From a virus: a DNA stretch of 22,998 nt. The position numbers and the translations under genes were made by a program. The stretch is from positions 1 through 22,998 of the IMG/VR virus record IMGVR_UViG_3300005523_000018, one strand, 5' to 3'. Every line of letters starts with the position of its first letter. Position 1 is the stretch's first letter. The notes beneath the pieces are model-generated. The model was given only the letters and a program-made list of their open reading frames with translations. It ran no database searches and was not told the origin of the DNA. Shown here piece after piece: positions 197 through 11,454 of this stretch.

Positions 197-763
197 ATGG
201 CAAAGAAGATAGAACATTGGTCAACGGAAAGACTTATCCCTTATGAAAAGAACTCAAGAACACATAGTGAGGAGCAGGTAGGACAAATATCTCAGTCTAT
301 TGTCGAGTTTGGTTTTCTAAACCCTATTCTTGTAGATACAAATGATGGAATTATTGCGGGACATGGTCGGTTGCAAGCGGCCAAAGAATTAGACTTAAAA
401 GAAGTCCCAGTTGTTGTCTTAGATCATTTAACAGAAAAGCAAAGAAGGGCATATATTATTGTTGATAATAAGTTGGCCCTTAATGCTGGGTGGGATCAGG
501 ATGTCCTTTCAAGTGAAATAGCAGAATTAAATGAAGCAGACTTTAATATTTCGTTATTAGGTTTTACTGAAGCAGAAATTGATGGGCTGCTAGAAGAACC
601 GTGGGATAGTGATATTGATGCAATGGATAAAATTGAGGCAAAAGATTCGGAGGTTAAGGCATCGATTAAAATTAGTTGCAATGAATGGGATAAGGAGCAA
701 ATAAGAGAAGCAATAACCAACACGATAGATCAGTTAGGTCTGGAGAATGTTGATGTCAGCTAG
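197..763 (+). CDS. ParB/sulfiredoxin-like nuclease-domain protein
   Basis: This ParB N-terminal-type protein has 188 residues from ATG 197. In-frame GTG codons at 173 and 191 could extend it to 196 residues. No start has a clear Shine-Dalgarno sequence, and 197 was chosen as the first ATG. Residues 52-62 hold IIAGHGRLQAA, the G-H-x-R core that ParB-fold proteins use for nucleotide or DNA contacts. It follows the typical opening in which the protein lists what it needs (LIPYEKNSRTHSEEQ). The last 45 residues are acidic and unassigned. Phage proteins of this fold are often paired with a DNA methylase, but here the partner is a DpdA-like base-exchange enzyme whose start overlaps this gene's end. 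A DNA-binding or targeting role in modification is inferred. Chromosome partitioning is unlikely, because there is no ParA and no helix-turn-helix domain. Confidence 0.8.
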   Translation: MAKKIEHWSTERLIPYEKNSRTHSEEQVGQISQSIVEFGFLNPILVDTNDGIIAGHGRLQAAKELDLKEVPVVVLDHLTEKQRRAYIIVDNKLALNAGWDQDVLSSEIAELNEADFNISLLGFTEAEIDGLLEEPWDSDIDAMDKIEAKDSEVKASIKISCNEWDKEQIREAITNTIDQLGLENVDVS

Positions 764-1631
764 GAAGCTCAATATCTTAGTGGCTTATCCTTATTTTACT
801 GAAGGGATCAGGGCTTACTTGTTAAACAGAGATCCAAGTACCTTTCGGCTCATTGTGGATAGTGGAGCTTTTACAGCTTGGAATACTGGGGCAGAAGTAA
901 CGATGGAGGGATATACAAAATTCTTAAAAACAATTCCAAAATCATGGGAGTGGAAGGCGGTCCAGTTGGATGTTTATGGGGATCCGGAAGGAACTTATAT
1001 CAATTGGAAAAAGATGCTGGATATGGGCTTTGATGATGTCATGCCTGTCTTTACTCGTGGTGATTCTTTAGAACGGCTTGAAGAATTCTACGAGGCTACG
1101 GATTACATAATGTTCGGGGGTATAGCTTTCGGCGGTGAGAATAAAAATTATATTAAATGGTTTAGTGAGGCAAATAAGGGAAGAAGAGTTCACTGGCTAG
1201 GTTTTACGAATATGCCTTTTATTAAGCATTACAAGCCAGAGTCAGTGGATAGTAGTTCCATTACTTCTGCCCAAAGATATGGCTCTATTGTTTATTACAA
1301 GGGAAAAGGTGTATTAAAGACACTCAATAAAAAAGATTTTGCTAAGAAGCCTCCATTGGTTTTCTTAAATGAGTGCATTAAAAGAGGCTTCACAATGAAA
1401 GAATTAAAATGCCTTGGAGTCTCTGAGTCTTGGGTGGGGGCAGTTAAGACACCTAATAAAAAGAACCTAAAAGGTTTCGCAAGTTTTGTGAGTTACTGTC
1501 ACCACGTCTGGAGAGGATTTGATGTAGAAGATAATCTTGGCACGAAGATTTATTTAGCCTTTGCCACGGAGCAAGACATGGCAGGATCTTTCGATGCTTA
1601 TGACTTTATGAAATTAAGGGGGGCGATCTGA
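753..1631 (+). CDS. dpdA: DpdA-like DNA 7-deazaguanine transglycosylase (TGT family)
   Basis: This is a tRNA-guanine-transglycosylase-like TIM-barrel protein of 292 residues. The family swaps guanine for a 7-deazaguanine base, and DpdA members act on DNA. Visible motifs are DSGAF at 36-40 (TGT general-acid region), QLDVYGDPE at 71-79, GGIAFGG at 122-128 (the GGLAVGE-like base pocket) and VDSSS at 165-169, whose Asp166 is my candidate nucleophile. The compact CxCxxC zinc signature of bacterial TGT is not visible; scattered C208, C220, C249 and H250-H251 remain. ATG 753 is preferred over ATG 747 because GGAG at 742-745 is correctly spaced only for 753. The gene overlaps the ParB-like gene and is followed by the genes that make its substrate, preQ0. 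The DNA rather than tRNA target is inferred from the phage context and short length. Confidence 0.8.
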   Translation: MSARKLNILVAYPYFTEGIRAYLLNRDPSTFRLIVDSGAFTAWNTGAEVTMEGYTKFLKTIPKSWEWKAVQLDVYGDPEGTYINWKKMLDMGFDDVMPVFTRGDSLERLEEFYEATDYIMFGGIAFGGENKNYIKWFSEANKGRRVHWLGFTNMPFIKHYKPESVDSSSITSAQRYGSIVYYKGKGVLKTLNKKDFAKKPPLVFLNECIKRGFTMKELKCLGVSESWVGAVKTPNKKNLKGFASFVSYCHHVWRGFDVEDNLGTKIYLAFATEQDMAGSFDAYDFMKLRGAI

Positions 1632-2875
1632 TGTGTAGTATTTATGGAGCGTACACCCAAGAAAAAAATGGTATAGATCCCATTATTTTAAATACTGTTC
1701 GATTAGGAGCAAAAGACCGAGGCCGTGATGGTGGAAGAAAAGAATATTTTGGACTTCAGGGTGATGCTTATGCTGTTATGGGAAACTGGAGGGCTACTCC
1801 TACAACGGAGATAGGGAAAGCTCCTTTTCAACCTTATGGAAGAGTCGTTCATAATGGAACAATTGCTAATGACAAGGAACTAGGGGCAAAAGAAGGTGAA
1901 GTTGACTCTATGGTTCTGGATAGAGTTCTTAATAGTGATAATCTTGTTTCTTTTCGTAAATCCTTAAATCAAATCAAGGGCTCTTATGCGATTGGGATGG
2001 TGGGGACTGATCGGGTTTTCTTAGCTACTAATTACAAGCCGATCTATTTATTGAAGCGTGAAAAAGCTATATATTTCAGCAGTATGGAACGGCACTTGCT
2101 CCCAGTCTGTGAACTAGGGGTAAGGCCACAAAGACTTCAGCCTTATAGTGTGCTAGACCTTAAATCTGGTGTAAGTGTAAAGATACCAAGAGAGACACAT
2201 AATAGAAGAGCTTTAGTGATTGCTTCTGCAGGGCTAGACAGCACAACGGCGGCATATATGTTAAAGGCAGAAGGATATGAAGTTACCTTGCTTCACTTCA
2301 CTTATGGTTGTCATGCGGAAAAGAAAGAAACTTCTTTGGTTCAAAGGATTGGCAAAGATCTTAATGCTGATGTAAAAATAATTCCTATTAATTATTCTCA
2401 TTTTGCTGGGGGTTCAAGTCTTTTAAATAACGATGAAGAAAATATTGCGGAAGGAATAAGTGGGGCAGAGTTTGCCCATGAATGGGTTCCAGCCCGTAAC
2501 TTATTAATGATTTCTAATGCTGTGGCTTATGCGGAAGCAAATTCCTTTGCTTATGTCGCTCTTGGAAACAACCTTGAAGAAGGAGGTGCATACCCAGACA
2601 ACGAAGAAGAATTTACTCACTTATTAGATATAGCTTTAGATTATGCCGTTCATGATGGGGGTTGTGTTCGCTTGCTTGCTCCTGTTGGGAAGTTAATGAA
2701 ACATGAAATTGTAAATAAAGGGCTTGGTCTTGGAGTCCCTTATAAATTGACGTGGTCTTGCTACAAATCGGGGGATAAGCACTGTGGGAACTGTGGCCCC
2801 TGTTTTATGCGTCAAACTGCTTTTCGGCGAAACTACGCACATGACCCAACACTTTACGAGGTTTCTAAACCATGA
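1631..2875 (+). CDS. gat-queC: Gat-QueC: glutamine amidotransferase fused to 7-cyano-7-deazaguanine synthase
   Basis: This is a two-domain enzyme of 414 residues. Residues 1 to about 180 are a class-II glutamine amidotransferase: Cys2 follows the initiator Met, with GRDGGR at 31-36, NWRATP at 52-57 and VHNGT at 73-77. Residues 190-414 are QueC, an ATP-dependent PP-loop ligase that turns 7-carboxy-7-deazaguanine into preQ0: SAGLDS at 199-204, and a zinc site C377, C385, C388, C391. Such fusions are known from phages, including coliphage 9g, whose DNA contains dG+, so this enzyme probably also supplies ammonia to amidinate the nitrile. The PP loop reads SAGLDS rather than the usual SGGxDS, and the QueC YGQRH block is replaced by YGCHA, so the synthetase half is divergent. 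GGGGGG at 1618-1623 is a good ribosome site. The end overlaps folE by ATGA. Confidence 0.88.
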   Translation: MCSIYGAYTQEKNGIDPIILNTVRLGAKDRGRDGGRKEYFGLQGDAYAVMGNWRATPTTEIGKAPFQPYGRVVHNGTIANDKELGAKEGEVDSMVLDRVLNSDNLVSFRKSLNQIKGSYAIGMVGTDRVFLATNYKPIYLLKREKAIYFSSMERHLLPVCELGVRPQRLQPYSVLDLKSGVSVKIPRETHNRRALVIASAGLDSTTAAYMLKAEGYEVTLLHFTYGCHAEKKETSLVQRIGKDLNADVKIIPINYSHFAGGSSLLNNDEENIAEGISGAEFAHEWVPARNLLMISNAVAYAEANSFAYVALGNNLEEGGAYPDNEEEFTHLLDIALDYAVHDGGCVRLLAPVGKLMKHEIVNKGLGLGVPYKLTWSCYKSGDKHCGNCGPCFMRQTAFRRNYAHDPTLYEVSKP

Positions 2876-3546
2876 ACATTTCTGAAACAATTAAAAATAG
2901 AATAAAACTAGACAAGGCAAGTTATTTTGCTAATGACAATATTGCTTCTTATATAAGAGAAGGTGAGCTAGAACTTTTAAAAAAAGAAGTAGAAGAAAAG
3001 TTACAAGGTCTATTAGAAAGTTTAATTATAGATACTGAAAATGATCACAACACGGTTGAGACGGCAAAACGTGTTTCAAAAATGTATTTAACAGAAGTAT
3101 TTAAAGGAAGATATGAACAATGTCCAAAGGTAACTGATTTCCCAAATGCTAAAAATTTAGATCAGATTTACACAGTTGGTCCAATTTCAGTTCGTTCGGC
3201 ATGTTCTCATCATTTAGTTCCCATTATTGGAAAATGTTGGATAGGAGTAATTCCTAGCGACAGAGTAATTGGTTTGAGTAAATTTAATCGAGTGGCAGAT
3301 TGGGTTTTATCACGTCCACAGATTCAAGAAGAAGCAGCCATTCAATTAGCAGATACCATTGAAAAGTTGATTAAGCCTTTAGGGCTTGCAGTAATAATCA
3401 AAGCTCAACATCAGTGCATGACATGGAGAGGAGTTAAAGATAACGAAACTGAAATGGTAACAAGTGTTATGAGGGGTATTTTTAGAGATCAATCAGAAGC
3501 AAGAAGTGAGTTGATGAATATTTTTAATGGACAAGGATATAAATAA
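2872..3546 (+). CDS. folE: GTP cyclohydrolase I (FolE)
   Basis: GTP cyclohydrolase I converts GTP to 7,8-dihydroneopterin triphosphate, the first step of preQ0 synthesis. The protein has 224 residues, close to bacterial FolE. The catalytic zinc ligands are visible: Cys111 in SACSHHLVP (109-117), the adjacent His113-His114, and Cys182 in QHQCMTWRG (179-187). The pterin-pocket stretch GLSKFNR lies at 134-140. The first 30 residues are lysine-rich and variable, as is common. The start overlaps the queC stop (ATGA, 2872-2875), and the stop overlaps queD (TAATG). This points to translational coupling within the modification operon. A role in folate synthesis is less likely, because no other folate gene is present. 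Confidence 0.95.
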   Translation: MNISETIKNRIKLDKASYFANDNIASYIREGELELLKKEVEEKLQGLLESLIIDTENDHNTVETAKRVSKMYLTEVFKGRYEQCPKVTDFPNAKNLDQIYTVGPISVRSACSHHLVPIIGKCWIGVIPSDRVIGLSKFNRVADWVLSRPQIQEEAAIQLADTIEKLIKPLGLAVIIKAQHQCMTWRGVKDNETEMVTSVMRGIFRDQSEARSELMNIFNGQGYK

Positions 3547-3998
3547 TGAATAATTTTAAATCTACAAAAACTTATAAATCTTCAAAGGGGTTTAGCTGTT
3601 GTTTTCGTCAATGGAAAGCAGATTCTCATTGTAAGTATTTGCATGGCTACTCATTGGAAATTTCTATTCAGTTTGAAGCTTTAAATTTAGATAAGAGGAA
3701 TTGGGTTGTAGATTTTGGGGGGTTAAAAGAACTAGAAAAAGATTTAAGAAATACCTTTGATCATAAAACAGTTGTATCTTCAGATGACCCAAGAATTGAT
3801 TGGTTTTATACAGGTGAAAGACTTGGAATTTTGGATTTAGTAATTTTGGATGAAGGGGTGGGATGTGAAATGTTTGCTTTAGAAGTTTATACCCTTGCTA
3901 ATGCGTGGTTACAAGAAAGTGAGTTCAAAGAACGGTGCAAGATAACTCAAGTAGAAGTTCGTGAGCATGGTTCTAACTCGGCTATCTATACACCATGA
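3546..3998 (+). CDS. queD: QueD-like 6-carboxy-tetrahydropterin synthase, altered metal site
   Basis: This is a 150-residue member of the PTPS/QueD fold. QueD converts dihydroneopterin triphosphate to 6-carboxy-5,6,7,8-tetrahydropterin, the second step to preQ0. FSCCFRQW (16-23), SHCKYLHGY (27-35), VVDFGGLK (residues 54-61, approximate), FDHKT and the C-terminal VREHGSN align with QueD landmarks. Cys29 matches the catalytic cysteine. Of the three zinc histidines in the classical FxAAH...LHGH pattern, only His33 is kept: the first position is Phe20 and the third is Tyr35. Cys18, Cys19 and His28 could serve instead (inference). The rest of the fold is well kept and the neighbours are folE and queE, so a working variant is more likely than a decayed gene. 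It overlaps both neighbours (TAATG, then ATGA). Confidence 0.85.
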   Translation: MNNFKSTKTYKSSKGFSCCFRQWKADSHCKYLHGYSLEISIQFEALNLDKRNWVVDFGGLKELEKDLRNTFDHKTVVSSDDPRIDWFYTGERLGILDLVILDEGVGCEMFALEVYTLANAWLQESEFKERCKITQVEVREHGSNSAIYTP

Positions 3999-4378
3999 AA
4001 AAACTAAACTGGACAGGGTTTAATGAAGCAGTTACTTACATCGTTGAAGAATGTAAGTTTAAGAAACTAACTGGTGTCTATGGTTTTCCTCGTGGGGGGC
4101 TATGTCTAGCGGTTGCTCTTAGTAATTATTTAGATATTCCTTTTTTAATACACCCGAAAGAAGGCTGCTTGGTTGTGGATGATATTTATGACTCTGGTAA
4201 AACCCTAAATGAATTAAAAGGATTAAAAGATGCAGAATTCTTTGTATGGTTGTCAAAGAAACAACCTTCTTGGTGGAACTGTTATGAGGTCTTAGAAACA
4301 AATGAATGGGTCATCTTCCCTTGGGAAGACGAGAACCAAGCGATTAAGGGTATGGAGGAATATTATGCTACGAATTAA
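3995..4378 (+). CDS. Small phosphoribosyltransferase-family protein
   Basis: This is a compact type-I phosphoribosyltransferase-like protein of 127 residues. The PRPP-binding loop LVVDDIYDSGKT lies at 59-70, with two acidic residues before the DSGKT phosphate loop. VYGFPRGG (28-35) matches the PPi-loop region seen in xanthine/guanine PRTases, and WVIFPWE is a typical C-terminal strand of that group. It has no part in the classical GTP-to-preQ0 route, yet it sits between queD (ATGA overlap) and queE (14-nt overlap), so its product is likely made with theirs. It might recycle the guanine released by DpdA to GMP, or act on a 7-deazaguanine base. Both are inference. Its substrate cannot be read from the sequence. 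Confidence 0.8.
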   Translation: MKKLNWTGFNEAVTYIVEECKFKKLTGVYGFPRGGLCLAVALSNYLDIPFLIHPKEGCLVVDDIYDSGKTLNELKGLKDAEFFVWLSKKQPSWWNCYEVLETNEWVIFPWEDENQAIKGMEEYYATN

Positions 4379-5021
4379 TGAAGTATTTGATACTGTTCAA
4401 GGTGAGGCTTTTTACACGGGAAGTCCTGCCACTTTTATACGACTTCAGGGTTGCCCAGTGGGTTGCCATTGGTGTGATACGAAACATACATGGCACAAAG
4501 GGAGGGAAGGGAAACAAGTAAGTCCAGAAGCAATGCTGGCAAAAACTGGTGATAGCCCTGAATGGGCTGCCATGAGTGAGGATCAAATTTGTGGGATGGT
4601 TAGTAATTTAAAGCCAAGACATTTTGTCCTAACTGGGGGGGAGCCTTGTGCTCAATCTATTTATTCTTTAACTGAAAAATTATTACATCTTGGAACCGTT
4701 CAAGTGGAGACAAGTGGTACGCATGGGATCAATGTTCATTATGAGACGTGGGTAACTGTTAGCCCTAAAGTTGACATGAAAGGAGGGTTGCAGGTATTAG
4801 ATACTTCTTTATTAAGGGCTAATGAAATTAAAATGCCTATAGATGGAGTTAAAGATGTTAATAACTTAAAAAAACTTGTTAATCGTGTTGATTTTACTGG
4901 TTATGTATGGTTACAACCTGTTAGTCAAGGAAAAGAAAACACAGATTTATGTGTCAAAACTGCGACTGATAATAACTGGAGAATAAGTATTCAGACTCAT
5001 AAATATATGGGGGTCAGATAA
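4365..5021 (+). CDS. queE: 7-carboxy-7-deazaguanine synthase (QueE), radical SAM
   Basis: QueE rearranges 6-carboxy-tetrahydropterin to 7-carboxy-7-deazaguanine, step three of preQ0 synthesis. The protein has 218 residues, normal for QueE. The [4Fe-4S] radical-SAM motif CxxxCxxC is C30, C34, C37 (CPVGCHWCDT), and the SAM-binding GGEP lies at 91-94. EVFDTVQGE (6-14) is the usual QueE N-terminal pattern. ATG 4365 was chosen because GGAGG at 4354-4358 lies six bases upstream and the protein opens with that pattern. An in-frame ATG at 4302 would add 21 unrelated residues from inside the preceding gene. The stop overlaps the small terminase start (TAATG, 5019-5023), joining modification to packaging. 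Confidence 0.94.
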   Translation: MLRINEVFDTVQGEAFYTGSPATFIRLQGCPVGCHWCDTKHTWHKGREGKQVSPEAMLAKTGDSPEWAAMSEDQICGMVSNLKPRHFVLTGGEPCAQSIYSLTEKLLHLGTVQVETSGTHGINVHYETWVTVSPKVDMKGGLQVLDTSLLRANEIKMPIDGVKDVNNLKKLVNRVDFTGYVWLQPVSQGKENTDLCVKTATDNNWRISIQTHKYMGVR

Positions 5022-5539
5022 TGCCTTTAATGGACGCTAAGGGTTATGCAAAACATAGAAAAGTTAGTGGCCCAATGGTTACAAAGTATCTACAAAATGG
5101 GTTAATTCCTAGTGCTAAAAGAAATGGAAGAACTTGGATTATTGATAGTGATTTAGCGGATAAAGATTTAGAAAGAAGTTTACAAAAAGAATATAGAACA
5201 ACACCTCAAAGCAAACCGCCTACAAGACAAATTGATGTCTTAACTGGACACCAAACCCCTGTTCCTTCTTTGGCGGCTAACAGGGCAATTAGAGAGCTTT
5301 ATACGGCAAGAATAACAAAGCTTGAATATGAAGAAAAAGCGGGGAAGTTAGTTCCTTTGGATGAATTGAAATTAAAACTTGCGAAGGTTCATTTACAAGT
5401 AAGAGATCGCTTAAGAACAATCCCTGATCGAATTGCTCCTTTATTAACAGCCGAAACAGACCAGTCCAAAATTCACAATTTAATTGTGAAAGAACTTGGT
5501 CAAGCATTGGAGGGGTTACATGACATCAAATGGGGTTGA
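5021..5539 (+). CDS. Terminase small subunit (lambda Nu1-like)
   Basis: This is the DNA-recognition subunit of the packaging motor, with 172 residues. The N-terminus (about 1-50) looks like a MerR/Nu1-type winged helix: DAKGYAKHRKVSG, then KYLQNGLIP, then a basic RNGRTWIIDS segment. The C-terminal half carries a charged helix with LEYEEKAGKLVPLDEL, the REREAKLxAGxLV-type pattern that follows the DNA-binding domain in Nu1-like proteins. It is followed by a segment expected to contact the large subunit. The protein would bind a cos or pac site and recruit the large terminase. The start is coupled to queE (TAATG), and the end overlaps the large terminase by 20 bases. Confidence 0.85.
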   Translation: MPLMDAKGYAKHRKVSGPMVTKYLQNGLIPSAKRNGRTWIIDSDLADKDLERSLQKEYRTTPQSKPPTRQIDVLTGHQTPVPSLAANRAIRELYTARITKLEYEEKAGKLVPLDELKLKLAKVHLQVRDRLRTIPDRIAPLLTAETDQSKIHNLIVKELGQALEGLHDIKWG

Positions 5540-7403
5540 CTTCTTAGTTAAATCTTGTATCAAGAACCTGCAATTTGAACCAGATATTACTGTTAGTGAC
5601 TGGGCGGATAAAAACAGAATATTAAGCGGAAAAGCAAGTGCTGAACCCGGAGCTTGGCGTACTTCTCGAACTCCTTACTTAAAAGAACCGATGGATTGTT
5701 TAAGTGCAACCCATCCAATTCAGCGTGTTGTTTTACAATTTGGGGCTCAACTAGGTAAAACCGAAGCGGGGTCAAATTGGTTGGGTTATGTAATATCTAC
5801 GGCCCCCGGACCTATGCTTATGGTTCAGCCAACTGTAGAGATGGCAAAGCGTTTAAGTAGGCAAAGATTAGAGGGCTTAATTAATGAAACAGAGGTGCTA
5901 TCAGAACTTGTTGCACCTCCTAGAAGTAGGGACTCAGGCAATACAATGTTTAGTAAGGACTTTCCAGGAGGCATCATGGTTTTGACGGGTGCTAATAGTG
6001 CAACTGGGCTTAGAAGTATGCCTTGTAGATATATATTTTTAGACGAAATTGATTCGTTCCCTGCTGACCTCGATAACGAAGGAGATCCTGTTACTTTAGC
6101 AGAGAAAAGAAGCATGACTTTTAGTAGGCGAAAAATATTAATGACATCAACTCCAACTGTAAAAGATATGAGTAGAGTTGAAATGGAATACCTGCAATCT
6201 GATCAAAGAAGATTTTTTATTCCTTGCCCTAAATGTAAAGAAATGCAGTGGTTAAAATGGAGTCAAATTAAATTTGAAAATAATGATCCCAAGACCGTTA
6301 AATATGAATGCGAACATTGTAAGGAAAGATTTGAAGAGAAACATAAGGCTGATTTTTTAGAGAAGGGAAAATGGTTACCGACTGCACCCTCTGATGGAAA
6401 AACTGCGGGGTTTCATTTATCAGGTTTATATAGCCCACTCGGTTGGAAATCTTGGGAGGAAATAGTTAGTGAATTTTTATTAGCAAAAGGTGATGCCCCA
6501 CGTTTGAAATCTTGGTGTAATACTGTTCTTGCTGAAACTTGGGAAGAAGATTATGCGGCAAAGGTAGGGGCAGAAACCTTAATGGAACGGGTTGAAGTAT
6601 ATGAGCCAGAAGTTATTCCAGAAAAAGGAGTGCTATTAACTTTTGGAGTTGACGTACAAGACAATCGTTTGGCGATTTCTGGATGGGCATGGGGTCGGGG
6701 AGAAGAAGGATGGTTGATATTGCATCAGGAAATTTATGGAGATCCGGGAAGTAGCGAATTATGGAAACAGTTAGACAAGATAGTTTTAAAACCTTATCCG
6801 CATGAATTAGGGGGTGGTTTTAGGGCTGATGTTATTGCAATTGACTCTGGAGGACATTTTACGAATGAAGTTTATGCGTACTGTCGAGAGCGTAAAAAAT
6901 TTGGAGTTATTGCTATTAAGGGTGCAAGCGTTAAAAACAAACCTCCCATTGGCAAGCCTTCAAGATTAGACATCAACTGGAAGGGAAGAGCAATAAAAGG
7001 AGGAATAGAATTGTTTACTGTTGGAACAGACACAGTAAAGACAACTTTGTTTTCAAGAATGAGACATAACGATGAAGGGGAAGGGTTTCTTCATTTCCAT
7101 CACAAGTTAGATGTTGAATATTTCAATCAATTAACAGCAGAAAAACAAGTAATTAGATATGTAAAGGGTTTTCCTGTTCGGGAGTGGGTAAAAAAACCAT
7201 CTGCAAGAAATGAAAGCTTGGACACTATGGTCTATGCCTATGCGGGGGTTCATCGGATGTATCAACGAAAAGATAGAAGAACAATTTGGGATCAATTAGA
7301 AGAAAGAGGACTACCGAAATCGAATTTAAAAGAAAATAACGATAAACAAACGCTAAGATCAAGGAGAAAGGCGAAAAAGCCTAATTTCGTAAAACAATGG
7401 TGA
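5520..7403 (+). CDS. Terminase large subunit, GpA family
   Basis: This is the ATPase-nuclease that cuts concatemers and drives DNA into the prohead, with 627 residues and clear GpA-family features. The Walker A-like GAQLGKTE lies at 75-82, and Walker B IFLDEID at 172-178. A zinc-finger-like set C236, C239, C264, C267 interrupts the protein before the nuclease part. Asp378 in FGVDVQDN and the later IAIDSGG are likely nuclease acidic residues. The start at 5520 is supported by GGAGG at 5509-5513, six bases upstream. An upstream in-frame TTG at 5496 has no such support. A GpA-type terminase usually goes with cohesive-end packaging, but no cos site can be pointed to here. Confidence 0.95.
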   Translation: MTSNGVDFLVKSCIKNLQFEPDITVSDWADKNRILSGKASAEPGAWRTSRTPYLKEPMDCLSATHPIQRVVLQFGAQLGKTEAGSNWLGYVISTAPGPMLMVQPTVEMAKRLSRQRLEGLINETEVLSELVAPPRSRDSGNTMFSKDFPGGIMVLTGANSATGLRSMPCRYIFLDEIDSFPADLDNEGDPVTLAEKRSMTFSRRKILMTSTPTVKDMSRVEMEYLQSDQRRFFIPCPKCKEMQWLKWSQIKFENNDPKTVKYECEHCKERFEEKHKADFLEKGKWLPTAPSDGKTAGFHLSGLYSPLGWKSWEEIVSEFLLAKGDAPRLKSWCNTVLAETWEEDYAAKVGAETLMERVEVYEPEVIPEKGVLLTFGVDVQDNRLAISGWAWGRGEEGWLILHQEIYGDPGSSELWKQLDKIVLKPYPHELGGGFRADVIAIDSGGHFTNEVYAYCRERKKFGVIAIKGASVKNKPPIGKPSRLDINWKGRAIKGGIELFTVGTDTVKTTLFSRMRHNDEGEGFLHFHHKLDVEYFNQLTAEKQVIRYVKGFPVREWVKKPSARNESLDTMVYAYAGVHRMYQRKDRRTIWDQLEERGLPKSNLKENNDKQTLRSRRKAKKPNFVKQW

Positions 7404-7410
7404 GGGTCTT

Positions 7411-7977
7411 GTGAACATTCCAAAAAAGCTCAGGATGGGCGACACAACAAAATGGCGGGACGATGCTACGACTGATGTTTTTGGGAATGATGTAACGTCA
7501 ACAGATTGGACTCTTACTTATTACTTAAGAACAAATGCGGCAAAGGGACATACAGTTGTTTCAAGTGCATATACAACAGGATGGGAAACAACTATTTCAG
7601 CCGCTAATTCAGCAACATTTATAGATGGCGATTGGTTTTGGCAAGCAGTAGCAAATAAGGGGAGTGAAACTTTAACTTTAGGAAGTGGATCAATAAAGGT
7701 TTTAAAAGGTCTTAGCTATAGCGGAACTCCAACTCCTTTAGATGGTAGATCACAAGCAGTTAAAGATTTAGAAGCAATACAGTCAGCCATTAGATCCATT
7801 GTCTCTGGAGGTGTTGTTCAAGAATATAAAATTGGAACAAGAGATTTAAAAAAATATGATTTATCAGATTTAATAATGCTGGAAAATAAATATAAAGCTG
7901 AAGTCGTAAAGGAAAAGAAGAGTGAAATGATAGCTAATGGTCTAGGCAATCCACATAATCTATTCGTGAGGTTTTAG
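7411..7977 (+). CDS. gpW-like head-tail connector with extra N-terminal domain
   Basis: This 188-residue protein starts at GTG 7411, with GAGGG at 7402-7406 just upstream. The C-terminal part (about 112-170) resembles lambda gpW: a helix with DLEAIQSAIRSI, a hairpin with YKIGTRDLKKYDLSDL, and a second helix ending in basic residues. gpW alone is about 68 residues and plugs the portal channel. Here about 105 N-terminal residues rich in Thr, Trp and Tyr precede it and look beta-sandwich-like. I do not recognise that domain with certainty. The position between large terminase and portal is exactly that of W in lambda. It probably acts at the head-tail junction; the role of the added domain is unknown. 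Confidence 0.7.
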   Translation: MNIPKKLRMGDTTKWRDDATTDVFGNDVTSTDWTLTYYLRTNAAKGHTVVSSAYTTGWETTISAANSATFIDGDWFWQAVANKGSETLTLGSGSIKVLKGLSYSGTPTPLDGRSQAVKDLEAIQSAIRSIVSGGVVQEYKIGTRDLKKYDLSDLIMLENKYKAEVVKEKKSEMIANGLGNPHNLFVRF

Positions 7978-7979
7978 TC

Positions 7980-9494
7980 ATGGGATTTTTTGATTTTCTG
8001 CCAATTTCTGATTCTTTAAAAAGCACTCCAAAAGTTGAAACATTAAAAGAGCCAGAAAAAAAGATTAGTTCCGATCTTTCCAAAAGACGTTACAAAGGGG
8101 CAACAATTTCACGACTTACAAGTGATTGGGCGGCTTCAAGTAGTAGTGCTGACGCAGAAATAAAAACCAGTCTTAAAAAGCTAAGGGACAGAAGTAGACA
8201 ACTTTGTAGAGATAATCCTTATGCAAAACAAGCAAAAAGAACAACACAAATAAACGTAATAGGACAAGGAATTAAACTTCAATGTCAAGTCCCAGCACTA
8301 AGAGGAAAAAAGAAAGATCAAAAGTTGTGTTATTTAATTGAAAAATGTTGGAAAGATTGGTGCAAAAGGGATTCTTGTGATGTTTCAGGTCAAAGAAGTT
8401 TTGTAATGCTTGAAAACATGCTTGCAGGTGCATTACCTGAAAGTGGGGAAGTTATTTTTAGGATCGTTCGGAAAAAATTTGGAAAAAGCAAGATCAGTTT
8501 AGGTCTTGAAATGATCGAGTCAGATTTATTAGATGAAGATTATCAAGGGTCAGTAAAAAGAAAAGGTAACGAGTGGAGGATGGGCGTTGAAGTTGATTCT
8601 TGGGGTAGACCTGTTCGCTTTGCATTTTTAACAAGACATCCCGGAGATTATTGGTTCAAAGATCCCTATGAAAAAACGAAACATATTTTCTTGGATGCTA
8701 AGGATGTAATTCATCTTTATTTGCCAGAAAGGCCCGGACAAAATAGAGGAGTTCCGTGGTTTGCTTCTGTTATGGACGACTTGCATCAAATGTCGGGCTA
8801 TGAAAGTGCCGCAGTAGTTAGAGCTCGTGCGGGAGCGAGTTTAATGGGATTTATCACATCGAATGAAGGAGAGTTAGAAGCAGACGACGTTGAAGATGAA
8901 CAAAGGGTTACGGACTGGGAAGCAGGTGTTTTTAAATATCTAAATCCAGGCGAGGACATAACTGTTCCAAATGTCAGCAGTCCAGATCAGCAGTATGAAA
9001 TGTTCATAAGGTCAAAAACTCGTAGGTTTGCCAGTGGTTTTGGATGTAGTTATGAAACTATTTCTAGAGATTTTTCTGAGACAAATTATTCAAGTTCAAG
9101 ACTTGCTTTGTTGGAAGATAGGGAACATTGGAAAATGCTTCAAACTTATATAATTGAAAATTTCCATCAACGAGTTTTTGAGGAGTTCTTAGATGCAGCC
9201 GTTTTAGATGGTGTTTTAAGTTTGCCTGATTATGAGCTGAATACGGATAGATATACAAATCCAAAATGGCAAGCAAGGGGGTGGAGTTGGGTTGATCCTC
9301 GCAAGGAAATTGAGGCGTTTAGAATGGGTGAAGCGGCTGGTTATTACACTAAGAGCCAAATCGTTTCGATGTTGGGGAATGACTTGGATGATAATATTCA
9401 GCAAATTAAGGCCGAACAAGATCAATTAAGTGAATCTGGAGTACAATTAGACTTGGATTTAAAGGTTATTAGCGAAGATATTTCAAGTGAATAA
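7980..9494 (+). CDS. Portal protein, lambda gpB family
   Basis: This 504-residue portal protein forms the ring at one capsid vertex through which DNA enters and leaves and to which the tail connectors bind. The family pattern is clear. An N-terminal helix-rich segment has RDRSRQLCRDNPYAKQA, followed by a TQINVIGQGIKLQ strand. The central stem region includes RPGQNRGVPWFASVM and RAGASLMGFI, and the sequence FSETNYSSSRLALLEDR is typical of gpB-type portals. GAGG about eight bases upstream supports the ATG. The gene follows the gpW-like connector with a 2-bp gap. A 40-bp gap containing a candidate promoter separates it from the capsid gene. Unlike lambda, the maturation protease is fused to the capsid protein and is not a separate C-like gene. 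Confidence 0.93.
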   Translation: MGFFDFLPISDSLKSTPKVETLKEPEKKISSDLSKRRYKGATISRLTSDWAASSSSADAEIKTSLKKLRDRSRQLCRDNPYAKQAKRTTQINVIGQGIKLQCQVPALRGKKKDQKLCYLIEKCWKDWCKRDSCDVSGQRSFVMLENMLAGALPESGEVIFRIVRKKFGKSKISLGLEMIESDLLDEDYQGSVKRKGNEWRMGVEVDSWGRPVRFAFLTRHPGDYWFKDPYEKTKHIFLDAKDVIHLYLPERPGQNRGVPWFASVMDDLHQMSGYESAAVVRARAGASLMGFITSNEGELEADDVEDEQRVTDWEAGVFKYLNPGEDITVPNVSSPDQQYEMFIRSKTRRFASGFGCSYETISRDFSETNYSSSRLALLEDREHWKMLQTYIIENFHQRVFEEFLDAAVLDGVLSLPDYELNTDRYTNPKWQARGWSWVDPRKEIEAFRMGEAAGYYTKSQIVSMLGNDLDDNIQQIKAEQDQLSESGVQLDLDLKVISEDISSE

Positions 9495-9510
9495 AAAAAG
9501 CATATAATGA
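9481..9510 (+). promoter_or_regulatory. Candidate internal promoter for the capsid cassette
   Basis: TATAAT lies at 9503-9508 inside GCATATAATGA (9500-9510), an exact copy of the 11-mer at 139-149. The -35 region is weak (TTTCAA, 9481-9486, spacer 16). It fills most of the 40-bp gap between the portal and capsid genes. This placement would boost the most abundant virion protein. It is a prediction from sequence only. Confidence 0.5.
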
Positions 9511-9534
9511 TGGACATAGCTATTTCATTGTTCT

Positions 9535-11454
9535 GTGGATTTAGAAAAACAAGAAACACCTACTTCTAAAAAAATTAAATTAGAGGATTTACAAAAGAGG
9601 GGAAATGGTGGCGAGTTAATACAAACTCGTGAAGCCAAAATTGAATCTGCGAGCGATTCAGATGAAATGTATTTTAGTTTTAGTTCGGAGGAACCTGTTG
9701 AGCGTTACTTCGGAAAAGAAATATTATCCCATGATGATGGTGCAGCAGACTTTTCCCGTTTAAATAATGGCACTGGACCCTTCTTATGGAACCATGACAG
9801 AGATACAGTTTTAGGCGTTGTTCGTAACGCACAAATTGACAACGATAAAAGAGGATACGCAACAATTAAATGGAGTCAAAATCCAGCAGCACAAGAAAAG
9901 AGACAAGACGTTGAAGATGGAATTTTATCTCAAGTAAGTTTTGCTTATAAAATTAATGAAGTTGAAGAAAGAGAAGAAGATTTTCTTGTTACAAAATGGT
10001 CGGCATTGGAGGTAAGTTTGGTTAGCATTCCGGCGGATTCCAGTGTCGGAATTGGACGTACATTTGAAGAGCCTATTACTATGAAAACAACAACTTCTTC
10101 TTCAGTTGAAGAAGTTACGACTTCATCTTCTGAAGTTGAGAAAGTTTCCTCCGATTCTTCGAGGGAAGCTGAGGCGGCAAATGCCCCACCAAGTCCAACA
10201 ACAACTATTTCTCCAATGGAAGAAAAAATTGATGTGGAAGCTCAGACTAAGGCAGCCGTCGAGGCTGAACGTAGTAGAAGCGAATCCATCACAGCTATGG
10301 GTGACAAGTATGATTGCCCAGAGTTAGCTCGCTCATTAAACGGCGAGGGAGCATCTGTAGAAGAAGCTCGTACAAAAATTACTGAACTTCGTGAGGAACG
10401 AATTAACACTGTGGAACAACGTATTCAGAACACACCATCCAAAGAGGTGGGTCTTGAAGAGAAAGAAATTAAGAGATTTTCTTTCCTTCGTGCTTTAAAT
10501 GCTTTAGCAAACCCAACTGACAAGCAAGCTCAAGAAGCTGCTGCTTATGAGAAGGAAGTTTCTGAAGCTGCTTCCAGAGCCTATGGCAAGCCAGCCGCAG
10601 GTATCATGGTTCCAAACGAAGTTTTAAAAAGAGACTTAAACGTAGGAACAGCAACAGCAGGTGGAAACCTAGTTGCTACTGAGCTTTTAGCTGGTTCATT
10701 TATAGACATTCTTCGTAAAAGAATGGCTTTAATGCAAGCTGGAGTAACAATGTTGACAGGACTTGAAGGTAATATTTCAATTCCAAGAATGACATCTAGC
10801 TCAACCGCTTATTGGGTTGGGGAAGGAGCTTCACCAACAGAAAGTCAACAGGCTTTTGATCAGGTGAATCTTTCACCTAAGACAGTTGGTGCTTATGTTG
10901 ACTACACAAGAAGAACTCTTCTTCAGTCAAGCATTGACGTTGAAGCAATGGTTAGAGACGACCTAGCAAAGGTAATAGCTCTTGAATTAGATCGTGCTGG
11001 TCTTTATGGATCAGGTTCTTCCAATCAGCCTTTGGGTTTAACAGGAACTTCTGGCATCGGAACTCAGACCATAACCACTTATGGAACTTTTGCTGAGTAC
11101 ATCGGTATGGAGACAGACGTTGCAACAGCTAATGCTGATGTAGCTTCTATGAAGTATCTCGTTAATGCAGCCGCTAGAGGTGCATTGAAGTCAACAGAAA
11201 AAGCTTCAAGCACTGCTCAATTTGTTTGGGAAAATGATGAAATCAATGGCTATCAAGCTATCGTTTCTAACCAACTAGCAAACAATGATGTCGTCTTCGG
11301 AGACTTCTCTCAGTTTGTTGTTGCTACATGGTCTGGACTTGACTTAACTGTTGATCCATACGCAGGTGCAACAAGTGGCAATATCAGAATTATTGCTCTT
11401 CAGGATGTTGACTATGGTGTCAAGCAGCCCGGAGCGTTCTGCTACGGAACATAA
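9535..11454 (+). CDS. HK97-type prohead protease fused to major capsid protein
   Basis: This 639-residue polyprotein starts at GTG. Residues about 30-180 are a U35-type prohead protease: candidate catalytic residues are His87 in FLWNHD, Ser135 in SQVSFAY, and Glu159 in SALEVSLVSIPAD. A Ser/Thr/Glu-rich linker (183-225) follows, then a charged, coiled-coil-like scaffold segment (about 228-310). The HK97-fold major capsid protein (about 310-639) has GGNLVATELLAGSFIDILR, ISIPRMTSS and LGLTGTSGI landmarks. The protease probably cuts itself free and removes the scaffold during maturation. No Shine-Dalgarno sequence is visible before GTG 9535. Internal ATGs at 10081 (residue 183) and 10216 (residue 228) could give protease-free capsid, but neither has a strong ribosome site. 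Confidence 0.93.
   Translation: MDLEKQETPTSKKIKLEDLQKRGNGGELIQTREAKIESASDSDEMYFSFSSEEPVERYFGKEILSHDDGAADFSRLNNGTGPFLWNHDRDTVLGVVRNAQIDNDKRGYATIKWSQNPAAQEKRQDVEDGILSQVSFAYKINEVEEREEDFLVTKWSALEVSLVSIPADSSVGIGRTFEEPITMKTTTSSSVEEVTTSSSEVEKVSSDSSREAEAANAPPSPTTTISPMEEKIDVEAQTKAAVEAERSRSESITAMGDKYDCPELARSLNGEGASVEEARTKITELREERINTVEQRIQNTPSKEVGLEEKEIKRFSFLRALNALANPTDKQAQEAAAYEKEVSEAASRAYGKPAAGIMVPNEVLKRDLNVGTATAGGNLVATELLAGSFIDILRKRMALMQAGVTMLTGLEGNISIPRMTSSSTAYWVGEGASPTESQQAFDQVNLSPKTVGAYVDYTRRTLLQSSIDVEAMVRDDLAKVIALELDRAGLYGSGSSNQPLGLTGTSGIGTQTITTYGTFAEYIGMETDVATANADVASMKYLVNAAARGALKSTEKASSTAQFVWENDEINGYQAIVSNQLANNDVVFGDFSQFVVATWSGLDLTVDPYAGATSGNIRIIALQDVDYGVKQPGAFCYGT

Follow-up and report, generated by a model that had tools for sequence, protein, structure and literature searches.

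The window analysed here is the complete 22,998-base IMG/VR virus record IMGVR_UViG_3300005523_000018, where seven plus-strand genes lie between positions 197 and 5,021, in the order ParB-like, DpdA, Gat-QueC, FolE, QueD, phosphoribosyltransferase (PRTase) and QueE (Table 1). All adjacent genes overlap by 1 to 17 bases, and the last one overlaps by a single base the gene of the small terminase subunit, terS. Since these overlaps run on up to terS, a chance grouping is excluded: the seven genes form one tightly coupled operon, directly upstream of the terminase genes. The sixth gene is the main subject of this report: it encodes a small PRTase, similar to the guanine/xanthine enzyme XGPRT, which recurs in viral 7-deazaguanine clusters and may there recycle the guanine expelled during DNA modification.

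FolE, QueD, QueE and QueC had originally been predicted to be contiguous here, together with a DpdA-like transglycosylase. All of them are found at this place by family searches, but the run is not uninterrupted, as the PRTase gene splits queD from queE. The predicted span does correspond to a coupled operon; its first base, however, is the ATG of the ParB-like gene, not of a pathway gene. The PRTase, the ParB-like partner and the variant nature of QueD are features absent from the original prediction.

The pathway enzymes

FolE and QueE score above the cut-offs of their families (PF01227 and TIGR04322, respectively). Gat-QueC is 45% identical to the corresponding protein of Enterobacteria phage 9g, bearing out the originally claimed glutaminase-QueC fusion of the 9g type: when aligned with 9g and seven other proteins, all catalytic positions are invariant, including the Ntn (N-terminal nucleophile) residue Cys2, the RGRDG and HNG motifs, the SAGLDS PP-loop and the four zinc cysteines C377, C385, C388 and C391. 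DpdA is just 22% identical to 9g DpdA, and all invariant positions are common to both. Its residues D38, H149 and D168, which correspond to D72, H196 and D215 of 9g, are invariant in 15 DpdAs, 9g included; H196 is the histidine which sets DpdA apart from DpdA2 (PMC6884629). A Pfam search of the window DpdA gave no match. The Pfam family PF01702 (TGT) matched 0 of 11 records, including phiST, whose DpdA2 is found by the custom profile A3; silence of PF01702 is therefore uninformative. As phrog_887 misses the DpdA2 of immuto and phiST, custom profiles A2 and A3 were used for DpdA2.

Gat-QueC and DpdA of phage 9g together produce 2'-deoxyarchaeosine (dG+) in E. coli DNA, along with EcoRI resistance, even when the host QueC is missing; in phage CAjan, all modification is lost without DpdA (PMC6884629). 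The dG+ pathway itself is thus already known from 9g. The conservation of the Gat-QueC residues and of the DpdA triad supports a pathway of the 9g type, as originally proposed, and dG+ may be predicted with good confidence in the virion DNA of the window phage; protection from restriction would follow by analogy with 9g. In the expected scheme, FolE, the QueD variant and QueE would convert GTP to 7-carboxy-7-deazaguanine (CDG); Gat-QueC would form 7-cyano-7-deazaguanine (preQ0) and, using glutamine, turn it into the G+ formamidine; DpdA, with probable help from the ParB-like partner, would put this in place of guanines of the phage DNA, to give dG+ and restriction protection. A supply of queuosine (Q) to host tRNA, rather than of modified bases to phage DNA, is very improbable: preQ0, the Q precursor, is indeed made by these same enzymes, but the operon holds both DpdA and Gat-QueC, and tRNA Q did not reappear in E. 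coli queC mutants given the 9g Gat-QueC, which nevertheless yielded dG+ in DNA together with DpdA (PMC6884629).

The window shares with 9g the five predicted activities, that of QueD by way of a variant protein whose activity is putative, the Gat-QueC fusion with its catalytic residues and the two aspartates and one histidine of DpdA. It differs by the PRTase gene in the operon, the ParB-like gene before dpdA, the variant QueD, the gene order and the location, next to the terminase genes and not beside DNA polymerase.

Table 1. Genes of the operon and other features mentioned in the text. Positions refer to the window, unless another record is named; E, expectation value; aa, amino acids.
Feature	Positions	Strand	Evidence or content
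ParB-like (ParBc) protein, DpdA partner gene	197-763	+	PF02195, phrog_498
DpdA-like DNA guanine transglycosylase, 294 aa	747-1631	+	phrog_887, E 6e-30
Gat-QueC, glutamine amidotransferase fused to preQ0 synthase, 414 aa	1631-2875	+	QueC PF06508, E 5e-53
FolE, GTP cyclohydrolase I, 224 aa	2872-3546	+	PF01227, E 6e-47, 159.8 bits (cut-off 27)
QueD-like 6-carboxytetrahydropterin synthase, variant zinc site (F20, Y35), 150 aa	3546-3998	+	PF01242, E 2e-17
Hood-less XGPRT-like PRTase, 127 aa; proposed guanine salvage	3995-4378	+	phrog_8995, AlphaFold2 model
QueE	4365-5021	+	TIGR04322, 256.6 bits (cut-off 200); motif
Terminase small and large subunits (terS, terL)	5021-7403	+	phrog_57, phrog_15
TGT-like protein of about 500 aa, DSGGFQ motif	L339: 976-2487	-
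TGT-like protein of about 500 aa, DSGGFQ motif	PA5oct: 222982-224283		annotated as hypothetical
Genes around FolE/DpdA2	phiST (L194): 6905-8286		MazG-like pyrophosphohydrolase, ATPase or formyltransferase
Genes around FolE/DpdA2	immuto (L006): 7344-9540		MazG-like pyrophosphohydrolase, ATPase or formyltransferase

The phosphoribosyltransferase and its contexts

The protein scores 24.0 bits against the Pfam PRTase family, just under the 26.3 cut-off, and is matched by phrog_8995. Its AlphaFold2 model (pLDDT 94.4) is nearest to E. coli XGPRT bound to a guanine transition-state analogue (4jls; Z 17.2, rmsd 2.9 over 115 aligned residues), and a profile built from 31 viral relatives retrieves the purine PRT of P. 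horikoshii (E 6e-24); the nearest solved folds are thus guanine/xanthine PRTs. Residues R33-G34-G35, D62-D63, D/E66, G68, T70, W105, P109 and E111 are conserved in the 31 sequences. Sequence features of XGPRT are present: the loop binding phosphoribosyl pyrophosphate (PRPP), DDxx[DE][ST]GxT, the RGG loop and the purine pocket W..PW[DE], which includes the purine-stacking Trp, all of them shared with the enzymes of E. coli (4jls, 1a95) and P. horikoshii (1vdm). Unlike these, the window protein does not have the flexible hood loop, which would follow the RGG loop and precede the DD motif, and is 22-27 residues shorter here than 6kqc and 1vdm; because of this absence, it is named XGPRT-like, not XGPRT.

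Association with 7-deazaguanine clusters was evaluated on two sets of 80 viral loci, anchored on DpdA or on the QueD variant and ranked by similarity to the window, whose counts are not frequencies for all phages. Among the DpdA-anchored loci, chosen regardless of the PRTase, 67 contain FolE, QueD and QueE, and 36 of these also have the PRTase, either as a gene lying between queD and queE or as an N-terminal fusion to FolE; 27 of the 80 QueD-variant loci have it as well. The N-terminal fusion is found in many viral contigs and in the cultured phages NP1, PSASB_03 and VpKK5. In such fusion clusters of Queuovirinae (for example Pseudomonas phage NP1 and Vibrio phage VpKK5), an XGPRT-like domain is present in the pathway cluster, as in the window, but within a protein annotated as GTP cyclohydrolase, whereas the window has a gene of its own for it, placed between queD and queE. 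In immuto the PRTase adjoins FolE, QueE and DpdA; in PA5oct it lies near QueE and a TGT-like protein. The loci that hold it vary in their transglycosylase (DpdA1, DpdA2 or a third, TGT-like type) and in their QueC content: Gat-QueC, QueC alone, QueC plus QueF, or no QueC.

Hooded PRTases were used as a control: in a scan from seeds without a nearby pathway gene, 54 of 67 hooded proteins lie no more than 3 kb from a pathway gene. A pathway specificity of the hood-less form was therefore rejected: hooded PRTases being equally linked, loss of the hood is not what ties the PRTase to the pathway. In the PRTase tree, built on few columns and unsure in its deeper forks, pathway-linked members occur in all main branches: FolE-fused, DpdA2-cluster, hooded and the branch of the window. 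The same tree places the window PRTase as sister to those of Prochlorococcus (support 98/90), and the copy of the diverged phage L009 with Synechococcus (96/59).

Marine PRTase contigs without DpdA1 or DpdA2 had been considered as evidence against base exchange, but this is undercut by the finding that 10 out of 26 carry the third TGT-like type (about 500 aa, DSGGFQ motif), PA5oct being among them; for one of the ten, the contig of L083, the match is weak (E 2e-12). These TGT-like proteins have no Pfam or PHROG match. In some marine contigs (L022/L119, L023, L122, L127) a second match to the PRTase profile is found downstream of queE, possibly a duplicated or diverged copy.

A literature search, which did not cover Cui et al. 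(2023, NAR) and Iyer et al. (2013, NAR), found no report tying a PRTase to DpdA or to phage 7-deazaguanine clusters; recognition of the enzyme in these clusters is probably, although not certainly, new. What is added here is a PRTase gene recurrent in such clusters, with recycling as its proposed role.

Cellular relatives are found in picocyanobacteria (loci L342-L420, from Prochlorococcus, Synechococcus and Cyanobium). They are chromosomal, about 43-57% identical to the window PRTase and, like it, hood-less with the same motifs, all of which are kept in 78 of 80 sequences; that streamlined picocyanobacterial genomes keep the gene intact argues that the hood-less form works. Unlike the window gene, they have no que genes in their flanks, and folE only occasionally. 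They too are coupled to a base-releasing enzyme: in about 45 loci a nucleoside 2-deoxyribosyltransferase gene (PF05014) is directly adjacent to the PRTase gene or shares some bases with it, mostly four, and the two look like a picocyanobacterial pair for salvage of purine bases. The PRTase is thus paired with two unrelated base-releasing enzymes, DpdA and the nucleoside 2-deoxyribosyltransferase. The tree gives a hint that a picocyanobacterium was once encountered by the window phage or by one of its ancestors. Within the genome collection, the best PRTase match (59%) comes from L341, a metagenome-assembled genome of Myxococcota, directly after a groEL-like gene; this stretch may be misbinned or transferred.

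A proposed guanine loop and its competitors

Known schemes of 7-deazaguanine modification in phages stop at base insertion, and do not account for the expelled guanine. In the mechanism proposed here, each base exchange by DpdA would expel one free guanine, while one GTP is spent per preQ0; the PRTase would convert guanine and PRPP to GMP, which host kinases would bring back to GTP for FolE, closing a phage-encoded guanine loop. A link from guanine to GMP is suggested because all the pathway contexts of the PRTase share only the use of GTP at the start and the release of guanine at the end; its location inside a translationally coupled operon also favours a role in the pathway. At the density reported for CAjan, 70,628 modifications per million nucleotides (PMC6884629), a 60-kb genome would expel about 8,500 guanines; for an assumed burst of 100 progeny genomes and an assumed cell volume of 1 fL, about 1.4 mM guanine would be released, with an equal amount of GTP used. 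A recovery enzyme, if real, would make modification much cheaper. It would also explain a gene which is either unannotated, because of its sub-cut-off Pfam score, or hidden in a 'GTP cyclohydrolase'.

Guanine salvage is our first choice for the PRTase, at about even chances. The whole explanation, a 9g-type operon with a guanine loop, is slightly favoured. A wider statement, that viral 7-deazaguanine modification commonly includes a dedicated hood-less PRTase, sometimes fused to FolE, recapturing DpdA-expelled guanine into the GTP pool that feeds the pathway, and that picocyanobacteria use the same enzyme beside nucleoside 2-deoxyribosyltransferase, could equally well hold or fail. Several observations weigh against the loop. 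Phages 9g and R7M have no PRTase, and hosts usually own guanine PRTs. The window protein lacks the hood, so that its turnover is putative. Fusion to FolE does not provide direct channelling of GMP, as two phosphorylations intervene. Some PRTase contigs contain no DpdA of the three types searched, although all of them may be fragments. Finally, the presence of pathway genes in the stretches around 68 of the 80 nearest viral PRTases (14 of them FolE fusions) is an inflated figure, since the ranking was by resemblance to seeds that were themselves linked to the pathway.

Hood loss and the N-terminal FolE fusion of many phages would also fit a regulatory domain, binding PRPP, GMP or (p)ppGpp and adjusting the pathway's entry enzyme, FolE, to the availability of purines, with no turnover of its own; the structural neighbours do include PyrR, the ppGpp-bound 5vog and PurR. 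Yet the purine-pocket residues W105, P109 and E111, needless for a PRPP sensor, are fully invariant, hooded and apparently complete relatives share the same neighbours, and the PRTase is mostly a separate gene beside queD/queE, not fused to FolE: this explanation, our second choice, is unlikely. A generic purine-salvage passenger, boosting nucleotide supply during infection and not specifically linked to base exchange, is more doubtful still. The sister position to Prochlorococcus PRTases might reflect capture from a host, and no que genes lie near the cellular copies; but several lineages have repeatedly placed the gene in 7-deazaguanine clusters, FolE fusion included, and in two separate scans phage XGPRT-like genes are mostly inside such clusters, not outside.

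The location among enzymes making preQ0, CDG and G+ raises the idea that the PRTase forms nucleotides of these 7-deazaguanines, either for DNA polymerase or to trap the bases within the cell. The chemistry of XGPRT contacts the purine N7, absent from 7-deaza bases, which counts against it, as does the finding that the PRTase accompanies every kind of terminal chemistry. Transglycosylases are reportedly present in all modified phages. Synthesis of a modified dGTP in some phages was left open in PMC6884629, but DpdA is in the same operon, and it is DpdA whose absence abolishes modification in CAjan (PMC6884629); such a role is improbable.

Other operon genes, relatives and genome setting

The original prediction of a QueD holds for the fold (AlphaFold2 model, pLDDT 95.6), while E. 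coli QueD has two zinc ligands that are absent here. C29, H33, the D72-H73 pair and Glu140 are kept, whereas Phe20 and Tyr35 replace two histidines; we take C29 to be the catalytic Cys, H33 a zinc His and D72-H73 the Asp-His pair of the E. coli enzyme, with zinc histidines at the positions of window residues 20 and 35. The canonical pattern (COG0720: C-x3-HGH and the His of AAHR) is not found: the window protein and each of the 35 aligned phage variants have HGY and Phe instead, F20 and Y35 being invariant in these 35, along with two additional histidines, H28 and H141. As both the HGH motif and the AAHR histidine are replaced, the label 'QueD-like variant' is used. The HGY form is also found in Iggy, phiSM, phiST and immuto, and the variant is widespread. 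In five syntenic operons (L013, L024, L029, L035, L058) a canonical QueD occupies the same place, so that the two forms are very probably equivalent in function. It is a guess that H28 or H141 takes part in a rebuilt metal site.

The ParB-like protein scores 36.2 bits against PF02195 (curated cut-off 26.3), confirming a ParBc domain, and matches the N-terminal part of phage DNA methyltransferases (phrog_498; PADLOC MTase_II, E 9e-45). In 73 of 75 viral loci of this DpdA branch, a ParB-like gene ends no more than 300 bases upstream of DpdA. The same domain has been described beside another phage base-modifying enzyme, with no role assigned there (PMC12783734). It is likely, from these associations, to be a DNA-engaging partner of base-modifying enzymes.

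On the 3' side, the operon is followed by genes for the terminase subunits, portal, head protein, tail terminator, tape measure and a lambda J-like tail protein: the window is a fragment of a lambda-like siphophage. It contains no tRNA genes. An independent contig of 5.9 kb (L008) carries a copy of the operon with 99-100% protein identity, while L009 shows the identical gene order, with 77% identity for DpdA and 65% for Gat-QueC. A near-identity DNA search of phages gave a sole match, of 137 bases in queC.

In seven relatives (L010-L014, L024, L035) QueC and QueF replace Gat-QueC, the remaining operon being constant; L010-L014 keep ParB, DpdA, FolE, QueD and QueE. The terminal chemistry looks modular, and for L010-L014 the gene content predicts 7-aminomethyl-7-deazaguanine (preQ1) or G+. 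In L010-L012 and L014, queF and queC are separated by one more gene, whose 149-aa product has no assigned identity. The genes found around FolE/DpdA2 in phiST and immuto (Table 1), a MazG-like pyrophosphohydrolase together with ATPase or formyltransferase genes, may represent further nucleotide-recycling or tailoring steps.

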